Origin: a virus
Length of the DNA: 45,343 nt
IMG/VR virus record: IMGVR_UViG_3300045997_000193
Location: 1-45,343 of that record
Strand: one strand, 5' to 3'
Within the stretch, counting starts at the first letter, position 1. Every line of letters begins with the position of its first letter. Made by a program: the position numbers and the translations under genes. The notes beneath the pieces were generated by a model. The model ran no database searches, was not told where the DNA came from, and saw only the letters and a program-made list of their open reading frames with translations. This document shows, in pieces, positions 3,637-44,330 of this stretch.

Positions 3637-3723
3637 GGCGCCGCGACAACCGCAGCGCATGAGTGAATCATCGCATTTCTGCGAAAGCCGGTCAAGCGGT
3701 TTCGGCGTCGAGCCGACGAACGG
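3637..3723 (-). promoter_or_regulatory. early promoter with spacer operator, upstream box and leader element
   Basis: Minus strand: -35 TTGACC (3690-3695), 17-bp spacer, -10 GATGAT (3667-3672). The inverted repeat TCGCA-GAAA-TGCGA fills the -10 side of the spacer. The upstream box GCCGACGAACGG (plus strand) is at 3712-3723, 16 bp from the -35. The leader holds GGCGCCGCG (3637-3645). The -35 overlaps the TGA of the preceding gene. Confidence 0.85.
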
Positions 3724-9919: not shown

Positions 9920-10321
9920 CTAGGAACGCTCCGGCGGGAGCGGGTTGGGGTGTAGCACCTGCCCAACCTCGTCCAGCGACCGCGCGACCACGGCCACGCC
10001 GCCGGCCGCCGTAACGGCCTCGCGGAACGCCGCCTGCTCGGCTCGCTCGGCGCCGCGCTCGGACTTGACCTCAACCGCGGCGAACACCGCGACGCGGCGG
10101 CCGACCATCTCGGGGGTGATCACGATGCTCTGCCAGCCGACGAGATCGGACACCCCGGGCGCCATGCCGTGGAACGGCCGCGGAGCGCCGAGCGTGATCG
10201 ACGTCGGCGTCCGCTTGAGCGGCTTTCCCGTCCATGCCATGCCGGCGTTCGCGCGCAGCAACCGGCAGGTTCCACGCGAAAACCGGATGAGGATTTCATT
10301 CAACAGCGCCTTCTCGCTCAT
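9920..10321 (-). CDS. VRR-NUC domain nuclease
   Basis: 133 residues. VRR-NUC proteins are PD-(D/E)XK nucleases that cut DNA junctions and are common in phage replication modules. Visible signs are the substrate/metal motif GVSD at residues 56-59, the EVK core at 84-86 (AAVEVKSERG), and the following helix with conserved Gln (AEQAAFREAV). The length fits stand-alone phage VRR-NUC proteins. The start ATG 10321 lies at the edge of an 8-bp hairpin (10320-10340) that could tune translation. It follows the ParB-like gene by 33 bases. Confidence 0.8.
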   Translation of the reverse strand: MSEKALLNEILIRFSRGTCRLLRANAGMAWTGKPLKRTPTSITLGAPRPFHGMAPGVSDLVGWQSIVITPEMVGRRVAVFAAVEVKSERGAERAEQAAFREAVTAAGGVAVVARSLDEVGQVLHPNPLPPERS

Positions 10322-10340
10322 GCCGTGATCTTCTCACGGC
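10320..10340 (-). promoter_or_regulatory. hairpin at the start codon of the VRR-NUC gene
   Basis: TGCCGTGA and TCACGGCA form a perfect 8-bp stem with a 5-base loop. Its 3' arm on the minus strand runs into the ATG, and the GAGAAG that could serve as ribosome binding site lies in the stem and loop. It could repress initiation or shield the mRNA. There is no T tract after it. Confidence 0.45.
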
Positions 10341-10354
10341 AGGAACGGAAAACG

Positions 10355-11293
10355 CTAGAACGGCATCGGCTGCTCGGGAACGGGACCCAACATCTCGTCG
10401 ATGCGGCGCGCCGCCGCCATTTCCGCGCGGGAGCGCCGCGGCGCCCGGGTGCGCGTCGTCTGCTCGCCCGGGACCGGAACAATTGCCGGTGCCAGCGTCC
10501 CCTCCTCGATGGCGCAATCGACCGCGCGCCGCGCGAACGCCTCGAACACCGGCACCAGCGCACGCGCGTCCTCGGCCGACAACGTGTGCAGCCATGCGGT
10601 CGGGTCGCCGCCGAGCGCGACGATGGCGCGCGCCGCCTGCGTGATCACGTTCCCTTGCGCCGGGTCGAGCGCGGGGATCGCGGTGATGGCTTCGTTCGCC
10701 GGCATCGGGTCGACGAGCACCGGCCGCGGCGCGCGCGCCGGCCGCGGGAACGCCCGCAGCAACGCGTCGCGCAGCGACATGCGGTCGGCGTCGACCTCGT
10801 CGATCAGATCGGCGCGGCCGGTTCCGAGCAGCCGCTCGGCATCGCGAACGTAGCGCGACGTCACGCCGACGAGCCGAGCGACCTCCTCCTGCCCAATCGG
10901 CCGCGGGTTGAGCACGTTCGTGTTGTCGCCCGCCGCCGCCACGCCGTAGTCGTGCCGCATGCGCGCCGCAGTCATGGCGCGTTGCGACGGCGACAGGTGG
11001 CGCCGGTGGATGTTGTGGGCGAGCACGAAGTCGAGCGCCTCGCGCCGCGTCCCGCTAACTTCGACCGCGGGGATGTGAGCCAACCCCGCCGCGCGCGCCG
11101 CGTCGACGCGATGCCGGCCGTCGAGCAGCTGCCCGCCGTAGAGCACGATAGGCGTGAGCACGCCGCGCGCAGCGACGTCGGTCGCCAGCCGCGCGAGATC
11201 GCCTTCCGACATGGTCGGCATGAGTTCGGCGAACGGGTGCGGCACCGGGACATCGCGCAACGCAAGGGGAGCCCGCAACGGAACGGTCAGCAT
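10355..11293 (-). CDS. ParB-like nuclease/partition-domain protein
   Basis: 312 residues. The N-terminal ParB/Srx-type domain shows the GRHR motif (LLDGRHRVDAARAAGL, about residues 57-72) and HNIHRRHLSPSQRA near 93-106, then a helix-turn-helix-like part (RPIGQEEVARLVGVTSRYV). Phage ParB-like proteins bind DNA or act as CTP-dependent clamps or nucleases; which applies here is unknown. The C-terminal 130 residues are Arg/Pro-rich and carry one copy of the dispersed 16-bp DNA motif (10474-10489). Start ATG 11293 overlaps the end of the upstream gene. Confidence 0.75.
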   Translation of the reverse strand: MLTVPLRAPLALRDVPVPHPFAELMPTMSEGDLARLATDVAARGVLTPIVLYGGQLLDGRHRVDAARAAGLAHIPAVEVSGTRREALDFVLAHNIHRRHLSPSQRAMTAARMRHDYGVAAAGDNTNVLNPRPIGQEEVARLVGVTSRYVRDAERLLGTGRADLIDEVDADRMSLRDALLRAFPRPARAPRPVLVDPMPANEAITAIPALDPAQGNVITQAARAIVALGGDPTAWLHTLSAEDARALVPVFEAFARRAVDCAIEEGTLAPAIVPVPGEQTTRTRAPRRSRAEMAAARRIDEMLGPVPEQPMPF

Positions 11294-11607
11294 GAAAACT
11301 CCTTCGGGGCAGACCCCTTGATGAATCGAGCGACGATGCGGCGCCGCGAAACCGTGACCGCGGCGACCGGAGCCGGCGCGGCAGCCGGAGCCGGCGCCTG
11401 CCGGCCCGCGACGATCACCGGCGCCCGGGGCGCCGACGGCGTCGCCGCGCGCTCGCCGTGCGGTTGCTGCGACAGCGACACCGTCGAGCGCACCAGCGGG
11501 TCAGCCTTGCGGTCGATGTAGTAGCGCACCCCCGTCGGCCGATGCACGACGAACTCGCGCCCCTGCGGGTCGATGCGAATCTCGGTAAAGGATTTCGGCA
11601 ACGCCAT
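11287..11607 (-). CDS. hypothetical protein with Pro/Ala linker
   Basis: 106 residues from ATG 11607, two bases after the GGCT-like gene. Residues 1-40 (SFTEIRIDPQGREFVVHRPTG) look like a small folded strand domain, followed by an Ala/Pro linker and a basic tail (SRRRIVARF). No family recognised. It is coupled both to the GGCT-like and to the ParB-like gene. Confidence 0.6.
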   Translation of the reverse strand: MALPKSFTEIRIDPQGREFVVHRPTGVRYYIDRKADPLVRSTVSLSQQPHGERAATPSAPRAPVIVAGRQAPAPAAAPAPVAAVTVSRRRIVARFIKGSAPKEFSC

Positions 11608-11609
11608 GA

Positions 11610-12194
11610 TCAGTTCCCCCCGGTGATGGAGTCGACGCCGTCAATCCAATCGTAGGTCGACGAGCCCTCGCGCCACTTCGACATCGCGACTTCGCGCCGC
11701 GCGCGCCGCGCATCCTCGTCCAGCCATTTCCCGCGGTAGCGCAGTTCGCGCCGGGACGAATCACGCGCGTCGGAAATCGCCGCGTCGAGTTGGTCCTCTG
11801 GCATGCGGCAATCGCGGTAGCCTTGCCGGAGCGTCTGCTCGTAGGAAATCGGCGGCTCGTGGCGGTCGCGCCGCGGACCGTTCATGATGTAGAACATCAT
11901 CTGGCGGTCGCGCTTTTTCCAGCGCAGATCGGCGTAGCGCTTGCCGTAGAAATTCGGGTAGGACTCGAAGCGGTCGAGCGCCGCCTCGTCGGCCGCTTGG
12001 ATTTCCCAAAGCGCGCACACGACGACGGCGTCCTTCTTCGGGATGACGTCGGCCACCGACCGGAACACTAGCCGGTAGTCGAAAATTTCCACGTTGCCAA
12101 CGTAGACCGCGGTCGGACAGCGCTGGCGCATGGCGGCGAAATTCGTGTTGGCGCCGTAGGCGGCGTAGAGCAGAGGATATCGGTTCGGGTTCAA
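11610..12194 (-). CDS. gamma-glutamylcyclotransferase-like protein (TTG start)
   Basis: 194 residues. GGCT/AIG2-like proteins release 5-oxoproline from gamma-glutamyl amines. Signs are the N-terminal nucleotide-free loop YAAYGANTNFAAM (residues 9-21, the YGSN-type motif), the catalytic-Glu-type segment ALDRFESYPNFYGKRY (about 73-88), and YEQTLRQGY near 119. The start is taken as TTG 12194, spaced correctly behind CCGGAGTCAACC. An ATG at 12233 would overlap the promoter. Its neighbour across one promoter is an amidoligase, the opposite type of chemistry. The C-terminal 60 residues are a highly charged extension. Confidence 0.75.
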   Translation of the reverse strand: MNPNRYPLLYAAYGANTNFAAMRQRCPTAVYVGNVEIFDYRLVFRSVADVIPKKDAVVVCALWEIQAADEAALDRFESYPNFYGKRYADLRWKKRDRQMMFYIMNGPRRDRHEPPISYEQTLRQGYRDCRMPEDQLDAAISDARDSSRRELRYRGKWLDEDARRARREVAMSKWREGSSTYDWIDGVDSITGGN

Positions 12195-12231
12195 GGTTGA
12201 CTCCGGTGAGTTGAATGAATGCAGCGAAACC

Positions 12232-12260
12232 ATTGTCGCACGATTGCGAACGCCGGTCAA
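12232..12260 (-). promoter_or_regulatory. early promoter with spacer operator (GGCT unit)
   Basis: Minus strand: -35 TTGACC (12255-12260), 17-bp spacer, -10 GACAAT (12232-12237). The repeat TTCGCA-ATCG-TGCGA abuts the -10. There is no exact upstream 12-mer. The preceding gene's TGA overlaps the -35. Confidence 0.85.
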
Positions 12261-12532
12261 GAGGTCATGCGCACGACGACGATGCCGGCCGCCTCAAGGT
12301 CGTGCAGGAACTCGTCGACCGAGCTAACGCGAACGTGGCTCTTGTTCCATTGCATGACGCGGCCGGCGACCGCCTGCATGTAGCGCTTGAGCGACGGCTC
12401 CGGACAGCCCCATCCGGACATGCGCATCGCCTGCAGCGCATCGCGCGGCGACGCGCCGACGTAGGCGCGGCCGTCGATGGCTTCGATCACGGTGGCAATC
12501 GGCCGGGGAGTGGATTTCATGATTGGCTTCAT
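12257..12532 (-). CDS. hypothetical partner of the amidoligase
   Basis: 91 residues from ATG 12532, three bases after the amidoligase stop, so co-expressed with it. It contains a Trp/Pro-containing centre (MRMSGWGCPEPSLKRYMQ) and a C-terminal helix-strand (VDEFLHDLEAAGIVVV). I do not recognise the family. The tight pairing suggests a substrate or partner of the amidoligase. Confidence 0.6.
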   Translation of the reverse strand: MKPIMKSTPRPIATVIEAIDGRAYVGASPRDALQAMRMSGWGCPEPSLKRYMQAVAGRVMQWNKSHVRVSSVDEFLHDLEAAGIVVVRMTS

Positions 12533-12535
12533 GGA

Positions 12536-13354
12536 TTAGGCTCCGAAGTGAGCGCGACGGTTGGCGAAAAATTCGGCGGTCGAGCGATCAACCTTCCGGG
12601 TGAAATCTTCGAACGTGCCGGCAACCGGAGCAACCGAGCGAACCGACATCGCGGTCGCCATGAACCCGGTGACGAGCTTGACCCACGCGACGATCTTCGC
12701 CGCGTCGGTCGAGCCGGCATGCTGGCGGAACTCGACCGTGCCATGCGTCGCCATCGATTGCAGGTTCATCTTGCGATAGCGAAACGGCGAATACTGCACC
12801 CGGACGAAACCGCCATTCATCGCCTTGCCGAGCGCCTCAACCGTGCGCGCCGAATCGAGCGTCGAGAATTTTTGTTCGAGCGTCGAGCCAGCGAGGATGT
12901 TCACATTCGAGAGCGCGTAGCGGTTGGCATCGCCGCGGCGGCTCGACGCGACGACGGCGTCGAACTGCGACTCATACTTGGCGAACATTTTGCACGCGTT
13001 CCGCAGCTGCGCAACCGACGCGCCGCGCGCACCGACGTGAACGTGCAGACCGCAGTCCTTGTTCACGACGCAACCAATCGCGGTCAGGGTGTTGCAGACC
13101 GTCGTCAGTTGGGCGATGCCTTCTTCGCCGCGGAGGATCGGCGACACGACCTCGATGCCATTCATGCCGGCCGGAGCATTGCGCCCGAGCGAACCGTCGG
13201 TCACGACCTTCCAGCCCGACGTCGTCGCATGCTCGGCGTGGTTGTAAGCCCGCGCCGGGACGCCGGCCGCGTTGAGCTTGGCGGCGATGGCGTCGCGGGT
13301 GATCGGCGAGTAGCACTCGATTTCGACGCCGAAGGTGAGAGCGGTTGCAAGCAT
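12536..13354 (-). CDS. amidoligase-family (COOH-NH2 ligase) enzyme
   Basis: 272 residues. Amidoligases of the glutamine-synthetase-like fold use ATP to join a carboxylate to an amine. Family motifs visible are GVEIEC (residues 9-14, metal Glu pair), WKVVTDGS (48-55), EVVSP (68-72), CGLHVHVG (101-108, His pair) and VEFRQHAGS (207-215, Glu/Arg/His). All catalytic positions appear intact and the length is normal for the PF12224-like family. Start ATG 13354 follows GACGGAGCCAAAA. The substrate is unknown: candidates are host or phage peptides or glutathione-like amines. It is the first gene behind an operator-bearing promoter. Confidence 0.85.
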   Translation of the reverse strand: MLATALTFGVEIECYSPITRDAIAAKLNAAGVPARAYNHAEHATTSGWKVVTDGSLGRNAPAGMNGIEVVSPILRGEEGIAQLTTVCNTLTAIGCVVNKDCGLHVHVGARGASVAQLRNACKMFAKYESQFDAVVASSRRGDANRYALSNVNILAGSTLEQKFSTLDSARTVEALGKAMNGGFVRVQYSPFRYRKMNLQSMATHGTVEFRQHAGSTDAAKIVAWVKLVTGFMATAMSVRSVAPVAGTFEDFTRKVDRSTAEFFANRRAHFGA

Positions 13355-13372: not shown

Positions 13373-13467
13373 GCGCCGCGGAATGCAGCGCCCACAAACG
13401 AATAATACGCGCCTGCTCGCAAAAGTGCAAGCCGATTATCGCGAAATCGCGACCGGCCGACGAACGG
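13373..13467 (-). promoter_or_regulatory. early promoter of the amidoligase unit with second operator and distant box
   Basis: Minus strand: -35 TTGCAC (13425-13430), 17-bp spacer, -10 TATTAT (13402-13407). The spacer repeat is weak (TTGCGAGCAGGCGCG). A perfect palindrome TCGCGAAATCGCGA (13439-13452) lies just upstream of the -35. The upstream box is at 13456-13467, 25 bp from the -35. The leader has GGCGCCGCGG (13373-13382). Confidence 0.8.
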
Positions 13468-42625: not shown

Positions 42626-42994
42626 TCACACGATGAACAGCCCGTCGTCGTCGTCGTCCGGAGCGGGCGCCGGCCGTGCGCGCCCGAACCCGCCGTCGTG
42701 CTTGGCCGTCTTCCGGTCGTGGCATGGCTTGCAGAGCGGCTGCAGGTTGGCGGCAGCAAAGAACTTCTCGGCCGCACCGTGGTGCGGCTCGATGTGGTCG
42801 ACGACGGTCGCACGCTTGCGGCACCCGGGGGTGCTGCACCCGGGATGCTCGAACAGGATGAGAGAGCGAAGCGTTGCCCATGCCTTCGTGTTGTAGAGCC
42901 GGCGGTTGGTCGTCGCATTGCGACGCCGCTCCGATTCTGCTACGGCGCGCGGTTGCCGGTCAAGAAACGGTGGACGGTTGAACCGATTCTGCAT
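42626..42994 (-). CDS. HNH endonuclease
   Basis: 122 residues from ATG 42994 behind GAGGCGCTCC, overlapping the methyltransferase end by 35 bases. The HNH core is complete: Cys53 and Cys58, DHIEPH (66-71), Asn83 and CKPCH (88-92), with the four Cys binding structural zinc. It lies one gene from the terminase genes; HNH proteins next to terminase assist in packaging-end cleavage in many HK97-like phages (established), so a packaging role is likely rather than homing. Confidence 0.88.
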   Translation of the reverse strand: MQNRFNRPPFLDRQPRAVAESERRRNATTNRRLYNTKAWATLRSLILFEHPGCSTPGCRKRATVVDHIEPHHGAAEKFFAAANLQPLCKPCHDRKTAKHDGGFGRARPAPAPDDDDDGLFIV

Positions 42995-44330
42995 GGAGCG
43001 CCTCTCGATTGGCGAACGTCTCGCCGGTGGTGGCGTGGACAGCTTCGCGCCCGGTGAAGTCTTGCCAGCGACGCACGATGACGTCGACGAACCGCGGCTC
43101 CAACTCGATCAACCGAGCCGAGCAGCCGAGCCTATCGGCCGCAATGAGTGTAGACCCTGATCCGCCGAACGGGTCGAGCACAAGGTCGCCAGCGCGCACG
43201 TTGTTCCCGAGCGTGCGCTCGATGAGCGCGACGGGCTTCATGGTGGGGTGGAGTCCTGACGCTGACGGGCGGTCGACGTGGAGCACCGAGGGGATGACCT
43301 CATCAAGCGTGGCGGCGCCGTTGACGTGGAGCACCCGGTCGCCGATGCGGATGGCGAATGAGCCGTCGGGTTGCTGCACGAACGGCGAGCCATCGCCGAG
43401 TTGCGCGATGGTGGTTTGCTTGCGGCCGCCGTGCCAGCGATGCGCGGCGCCCGGTCGCCAGCCGTACAGGATGGGCTCGTGCTGCGGTTGGTAGTCGGTG
43501 CGCGCCAGCACGAAGCGGTCCTTCACCCATTGCACGGTGATGTGCAGCTTGAAGCCGACGCCGGAGAACGCCTGCCTGAACGCGAGTCCCTGCGTGCCGT
43601 CGGCGTGCGCGACGTAGATGGCGGCACCGGGCTTCATCGATGCAAACGCCAGCGCAAACGCATCGCGCAGGAACAACGCGAAGTCAGCGTCGGACATCGA
43701 GTCGTTGGCGATCGTGCCAGCGGCGCCTTCGTAGGCGACGTTGTACGGCGGGTCGGTCCAGCATGCGTCGACCTTTTCGGCGCCGAGCAATGCGGCGTAG
43801 GTATCGGCCGAACGGCAATCGCCGCAGGCGACGCGATGCGGTCCGAGCGTCCACACGTCGCCGGGGCGCGAGAGTGCGACGGGTGGCGGTTCTGGCGCAG
43901 CGTCGGGGTCGTTCCCGGTCGCCGCGGGAGTGCCGAACAGGACGGCGAGTTCTTCCTCGCTGAAGCCGGTGAGGGATGCGTCGAAGCCGGCCGACTGCAG
44001 CGCTTCGAGTTCGACGCGGAGCAAGTCGGCATCCCAATCGCCGTCTTCGGCGATGCGGTTGTCGGCGAGCCGGTAGGCACGGACCTGATCGTCGGACCAG
44101 CCCTCGGCGACCATGACCGGAACAGTTGCCGCCCCGAGCAGCCGTGCGGCTTCAAGCCGGCCGTGGCCCGCGATGATGACGCCGGCCGAGTCGACGAGGA
44201 TGGGGTAGGTGAAGCCGAACTCGCGGATCGACGCGGCGATCTTGGCGATCTGCTCCGGGGGGTGCCGCTTGGCGTTTCCGGGGTAGGCGGCGAGCGCGTC
44301 GGGGGGGCGAAATTCAATTCGGTGGTCCAT
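42960..44330 (-). CDS. ParB-domain fused DNA methyltransferase (beta class)
   Basis: 456 residues from ATG 44330 behind CAGGAAAATAAATC. Residues 1-125 are a ParB/Srx-like domain (ILVDSAGVIIAGHGRLEAAR, RAYRLADNRIAEDGDWD). The catalytic N6-adenine/N4-cytosine methylase domain has DPPY at 193-196 before VLDPFGGSGSTL at about 384-395, the beta-class order. No restriction enzyme is near, so it probably modifies phage DNA against host restriction or marks the origin or packaging region. One copy of the dispersed motif (44117-44131) is inside. Confidence 0.9.
   Translation of the reverse strand: MDHRIEFRPPDALAAYPGNAKRHPPEQIAKIAASIREFGFTYPILVDSAGVIIAGHGRLEAARLLGAATVPVMVAEGWSDDQVRAYRLADNRIAEDGDWDADLLRVELEALQSAGFDASLTGFSEEELAVLFGTPAATGNDPDAAPEPPPVALSRPGDVWTLGPHRVACGDCRSADTYAALLGAEKVDACWTDPPYNVAYEGAAGTIANDSMSDADFALFLRDAFALAFASMKPGAAIYVAHADGTQGLAFRQAFSGVGFKLHITVQWVKDRFVLARTDYQPQHEPILYGWRPGAAHRWHGGRKQTTIAQLGDGSPFVQQPDGSFAIRIGDRVLHVNGAATLDEVIPSVLHVDRPSASGLHPTMKPVALIERTLGNNVRAGDLVLDPFGGSGSTLIAADRLGCSARLIELEPRFVDVIVRRWQDFTGREAVHATTGETFANREALHAESVQPSTVS

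Follow-up and report, generated by a model that had tools for sequence, protein, structure and literature searches.

The window, by which we mean the whole stretch of DNA analysed, is a 45,343-base viral contig from IMG/VR (IMGVR_UViG_3300045997_000193) that may be incomplete and that encodes a terminase, a major head protein and a helicase. Downstream of a RecT-like/exonuclease VIII-like gene pair lies a cassette transcribed on the minus strand, comprising an amidoligase (AMI), a small partner protein (P91) and a gamma-glutamyl cyclotransferase-like protein (GGCT). The features of this region are as follows.

13439..13453, minus strand: second operator-like site upstream of AMI, 3 mismatches (palindrome scan)
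13417..13431, minus strand: operator-like site in the AMI promoter, 3 mismatches (palindrome scan)
13402..13430, minus strand: AMI promoter, TTGCAC-17-TATTAT (read by eye from the sequence)
12536..13354, minus strand: AMI, PF12224 amidoligase of 272 aa, predicted GS-fold carboxylate-amine ligase (Pfam, AlphaFold2 model, fold matches, invariant residues)
12257..12532, minus strand: P91, member of an undescribed amidoligase-partner family (alignment, HMM, model)
12232..12260, minus strand: GGCT promoter, TTGACC-17-GACAAT, between P91 and GGCT (promoter consensus scan)
12236..12250, minus strand: operator TTCGCAATCGTGCGA, a perfect match within the GGCT promoter spacer (palindrome scan)
11610..12194, minus strand: GGCT, phrog_2520 type, 194 aa from TTG 12194 (PF06094, phrog_2520, human GGCT profile match)
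11287..11607, minus strand: conserved 106-aa neighbour directly behind GGCT (same position in the related contigs L006 and L007)

The AMI protein matched PF12224 (Amidoligase_2) at E=6e-34 with 118.4 bits, against a curated cut-off of 22, and phrog_2443 at 1.9e-44. All of the columns that were invariant over 20 relatives were kept (E11, E13, D53, S55, E68, G102, H104, H106, R192, N197, E208 and R210), including the conserved acidic, histidine and arginine active-site residues. The AlphaFold2 model showed a confident GS-type fold (pLDDT 93.2, pTM 0.91), the best PDB fold matches of which were YbdK (1r8g; E=4.6e-5, probability 1.00) and then GS, gamma-glutamylmethylamide synthetase (GMAS) and Dop. 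By family, residues and modelled fold, AMI is an intact GS-fold protein and a predicted ATP-dependent carboxylate-amine ligase, in agreement with the original prediction of an intact amidoligase carrying all motif residues.

The GGCT-like protein matched PF06094 at 4e-8 (34.2 bits; cut-off 22.8) and phrog_2520 at 1.4e-26, and its family profile found human GGCT (2pn7) at 2.8e-21. The catalytic Glu98 of the human enzyme corresponds in this alignment to an invariant glutamate, which is E90 in the 207-aa translation and E77 in the 194-aa form. The start was moved to TTG 12194, which is preceded by GGAG, because ATG 12233 falls inside the -10 box (12237-12232) and the genes of L006 and L007 begin equivalently. 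The YGSN loop reads YGAN in the window as well as in L006 and L007, the Tyr, Gly and Asn being kept and the Ser replaced by Ala. Judged from its sequence, this is an intact-looking, predicted gamma-glutamyl cyclotransferase, as had been proposed. Two outcomes, loss of catalytic residues and lack of co-occurrence in related phages, would have spoken against the original prediction; the residues were present and the pair was widespread in other viruses.

P91 is an intact ORF whose start lies 3 nt past the AMI stop, and the 91-residue partner noted earlier is a genuine gene of an amidoligase-linked family with members of 75-91 aa. The family HMM was built from an alignment of 32 relatives (A5), and the broad family was reached by iterative HMMs, with early inflated matches re-checked by position and with a rebuilt model; a scan seeded by one lineage recovered only the same contigs. 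Conservation of the partner in other phages, which had been proposed as a check, was found: each of the 74 viral HMM matches fell within an amidoligase locus, and 63 came straight after the AMI stop. Since these viral loci had been fetched via AMI or GGCT, whole bacterial genomes were also searched, giving 16 matches in 14 genomes that had been picked as AMI carriers, with 15 of the 16 beside a PF12224 gene, whereas the remaining 150 genomes, drawn from a single bacterial family, had none. The family was absent from Pfam, PHROGs, NCBIfam and PADLOC. The confident P91 model (pLDDT 91.2) had a beta-beta-alpha-alpha-alpha-beta topology, for which a PDB search gave no fold match at E<=1e-3 and none that was credible. 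A Pup- or LysW-like tag was ruled out by the missing conserved C-terminal Glu, and a role as part of a defence system was rejected with the absence of a PADLOC match. P91 thus defines a family of small proteins that are dedicated to PF12224 amidoligases and accompany them in both phages and bacterial genomes; this undescribed family directly behind the ligases is the more novel part of the cassette. In Phocaeicola vulgatus ATCC 8482 (L249), an AMI-P91 pair was followed by transposase-like genes (IstA/IstB-like by eye), and the pair may therefore be carried outside phages too.

The promoter in front of GGCT and the operator type common to GGCT and AMI had both been pointed out from the sequence, and both were recovered here, the operator as an exact copy at GGCT and in weaker form at AMI. 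The AMI promoter was not listed by the consensus scan because its -35 box matches just 3 of 6 positions. Allowing up to 3 mismatches, the operator TTCGCAATNNTGCGA had 40 matches in the window against 20 expected, a number that none of 100 shuffles reached, and 8 of the 9 best sites preceded a minus-strand gene start by no more than 90 b (P=2e-7). Operator palindromes TTCGCAnnnnTGCGA were observed in early promoter spacers at 3671, 4085, 4647, 5264, 7119, 7910, 9784, 12236, 13417 and 19402, and this family of at least 10 sites would constitute a sizeable predicted repressor regulon. In L006 and L007, a site of another sequence but comparable position, GCGCAA(n)GCGC, was seen by eye at both the AMI and GGCT genes. 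Co-control of AMI and GGCT is well supported, because both promoters carry one operator type and the relatives have analogous sites.

The nearest relatives (L006 and L007/L008; 48-51% identity) keep the order AMI-P91-GGCT-106aa-ParB-VRR, the VRR-NUC gene being seen in L007 only. In L007, where GGCT lies ~1.7 kb behind AMI, a MarR-like winged-helix gene with its own operator was observed between P91 and GGCT (10129-10536). Independent IMG/VR scans seeded by AMI and by GGCT repeatedly recovered each other, with AMI nearby in most of the 80 GGCT-seeded viral loci; a single-sequence GGCT scan of viral contigs gave no match because its patterns were too specific, while the alignment-based scan succeeded. 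Given that the gene set recurs in many phages, the cassette is taken to be a real working unit. It is very improbable that the genes are unlinked passengers that became neighbours by chance in early-region accessory slots: phage early regions do shuffle small metabolic genes and GGCT is separable from AMI-P91, as P91-only loci exist, but the association recurs across very divergent amidoligases (~25-50% identity) in independent scans, with tight gene order and with domain fusions adjacent to the ligase. Numerous P91 loci lack a GGCT in their vicinity, indicating that GGCT is not always required. Two tandem GGCT genes behind AMI-P91 were observed in two bacterial MAGs (L225 and L278).

We then compared the genes that accompany AMI. 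Among 65 distinct AMI-seeded viral loci, each with at least 2.5 kb downstream, 29 had a GGCT of the phrog_2520 type, 21 had a class-II glutamine amidotransferase (GATase) and 0 had both. Full-contig searches of 33 contigs gave GGCT in 10 and GATase in 18 with an overlap of 0, and in loci from bacterial genomes AMI was followed by P91 in 37 cases and by GATase in 15 (directly behind in 15 of 56 loci), never by both. In the combined set of 156 distinct viral and bacterial genome loci, GATase and phrog_2520 GGCT were together in 0 (36 vs 70) and GATase and P91 in 3 (36 vs 79). The AMI tree implied at least 5 partner switches. Sign tests of GATase/GGCT exclusion that respect relatedness were not significant, and with only 3-6 usable pairs the exclusivity is no more than suggestive. 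Strict exclusivity as proof of replacement was dropped, as the phylogeny-corrected tests were not significant and shorter GGCTs do co-occur with GATase, namely in LUZ24, phiEco32 and Arthrobacter phage Waltz. The pattern is suggestive of a class-II glutamine amidotransferase taking the place of P91 and GGCT in sister lineages, and would fit either protection and deprotection of an amine or amine supply.

Two phages fuse amidotransferase and GGCT domains beside a ligase, which is new here. In phage C75C1 (L202 5693-6589), a 298-aa protein near the amidoligase combines a class-II GATase-type domain at its N-terminus with a GGCT at its C-terminus, and in MW202828 (L203 5001-6218) a homologous fusion immediately follows an ORF in which divergent GS-type ligase motifs were identified by eye. 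GATase and GGCT domains both act on gamma-glutamyl amides, the former by hydrolysis or ammonia release and the latter by cyclisation, and gamma-glutamyl chemistry is therefore the common thread.

The association of amidoligase and GGCT in phages has already been published (PMC5498523, PMC11945000, PMC5513430, PMC11318856), and the original statement that such neighbours had been noticed before was correct (PMC5498523, PMC5513430, PMC11318856). The 'peptidoglycan modification cassette' of LUZ24, phiEco32 and PSA-HP1 (Iyer 2009; Hardies 2013; as cited in PMC5498523) resembles the window in having an early-region amidoligase and a GGCT in one neighbourhood; in its fuller published form, two further ligases and a glutamine amidotransferase are added to this pair (PMC5498523). 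In contrast, the window has P91 instead, and its GGCT is of the longer phrog_2520/human-GGCT type. The class-II GATase profile PF13522 was absent across the whole contig, itself possibly incomplete, with no phmmer match either, and the LUZ24 and phiEco32 references for the COOH-NH2 ligase and the RimK-type ATP-grasp protein had no phmmer match in the window, a search of limited sensitivity with two sequences each. We do not regard the window as a LUZ24-type cassette, since the searches for GATase, COOH-NH2 ligase and ATP-grasp came back empty; it is a variant set apart by P91, the amidoligase-GGCT pairing itself being known.

Candidatus Heliusvirales gut phages and related prophages (PV0364xx records and Terrisporobacter phage TPDSL_ph1; PMC11318856) have adjacent genes of the same amidoligase and GGCT families without GATase, but P91 was not detected there and GGCT lies directly behind AMI. 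Two Heliusvirales proteins (L003 9866-10594 and L002 4502-5296), one of them annotated as an amidoligase, are without the ligase motifs and are similar to the true amidoligase in its C-terminal tail alone, which suggests a likely misannotation and perhaps another partner. Arthrobacter phage Waltz (Laroyevirus; cluster AL, PMC5513430) also has adjacent GGCT and amidoligase genes, but with a short GGACT-type protein upstream, a GATase downstream and no P91.

Our preferred reading, held tentatively and at a little under an even chance, is an early repressor-controlled cassette in which AMI attaches gamma-glutamate to an amine as a cap, P91 assists the ligase and GGCT takes the cap off. AMI would activate the gamma-carboxylate of glutamate with ATP and attach it to an amine, either of a small molecule or of a lysine or DAP side chain, while P91 would bind AMI and set its activity or substrate. 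GGCT would later free the amine, yielding 5-oxoproline, and in sister lineages a class-II amidotransferase-type hydrolase would do the uncapping or amine release. Cyclotransferase chemistry forms 5-oxoproline, for which the alpha-amine of the gamma-glutamyl group must be free. This points to free glutamate attached via its gamma-carboxylate, as in the structural relatives of AMI, rather than to cleavage at the D-Glu of peptidoglycan stems, and capping is favoured for this reason. In EgtA/EgtC, BtrJ/BtrG and PuuA/PuuD, a ligase adds gamma-Glu and a GGCT- or GATase-type enzyme removes it, and capping and uncapping enzymes encoded by neighbouring phage genes would follow the same logic. EgtA is listed as a gamma-glutamylcysteine synthase and EgtC as a glutamine amidohydrolase (PMC6154287). 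These are cellular pathways with known substrates, and the phage cassette is like them in logic only.

We counted in favour of capping the fold and residues of AMI, the catalytic Glu of GGCT, synteny, the specificity of P91, the GATase/GGCT pattern, the fusions and the shared operator, and against it the non-significant exclusivity, the presence of both partners in LUZ24, phiEco32 and Waltz, the P91 loci lacking GGCT, the YGAN loop and the assignment of P91 by position. Beyond family membership, synteny, operators and models, the account is one that we infer, the substrate and direction of the pathway being part of the proposal. The earlier idea that a gamma-glutamyl group is made and then removed is compatible with the data. 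For P91, whose role we read from gene position only, a plausible proposal that also falls somewhat short of even is that of a hitherto unrecognised subunit or modulator dedicated to PF12224 amidoligases, standing in functionally for the glutamine amidotransferase. Ligases of the P91 type would then take amines other than ammonia and constitute a separate branch of amide chemistry carried by phages, in which GGCT would be the corresponding hydrolase.

Rather unlikely, although the best placed of the alternatives to capping, is amine supply, in which GGCT, or the class-II GATase of sister phages, would split a host gamma-glutamyl amide to release an amine (ammonia in the case of glutamine, an amino acid or amine in that of gamma-Glu-X) for AMI to ligate to a target carboxylate. 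The bacterial loci with GATase directly behind AMI recall amine-supplying glutaminases paired with ligases, and GATase and GGCT are exchangeable and, in the two phages above, fused. However, no GGCT is known to pass amines on to a ligase, the GGCT of the window has its own promoter, that of L007 is distant from AMI, and the slot next to AMI is taken by P91 rather than GGCT. Modification of the cell envelope for superinfection exclusion, as proposed for the cassettes of the phiEco32/LUZ24/RIO1 type, is improbable. The published proposal covers larger amidoligase and GGCT cassettes (PMC5498523; PMC11945000) but rests on gene content, and the additional enzymes were not found in the window with two references per ligase type. 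Cleavage by GGCT within a peptidoglycan stem is chemically unlikely, because the D-Glu there does not offer the free alpha-amine that the cyclotransferase needs. Improbable too, and if anything slightly more so, is a regulatory mark that AMI would place on a host or phage protein, for instance on lysine, and that GGCT would erase at another time. Separate promoters under one operator type would give co-control with some independence, and GGACT-type enzymes act on gamma-glutamyl-epsilon-lysine, but their substrate there is the free dipeptide and not the intact protein.

Phage amidoligases have been annotated for more than 10 years without a substrate, and the small conserved partner, the choice between GATase and P91 with or without GGCT, and the ligase-adjacent fusions narrow the chemistry. 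AMI, P91 and GGCT make up a minimal three-protein set for reconstitution, and related two-enzyme loci occur in phages of Bacillus subtilis, a host amenable to laboratory work.

The 106-aa neighbour behind GGCT matched no known family. Its relatives (window 11287-11607, L006 2368-2622 and L007 11224-11607; 85-128 aa) share an unvarying GRxxVxHxxTGxRY motif at the N-terminus and, near the C-terminus, a conserved FIxGSxP tail; it belongs to the lineage and is a candidate member of the cassette. Elsewhere in the window, a ParB-like domain fused to a DNA methyltransferase (42960-44330) adjoins the terminase.
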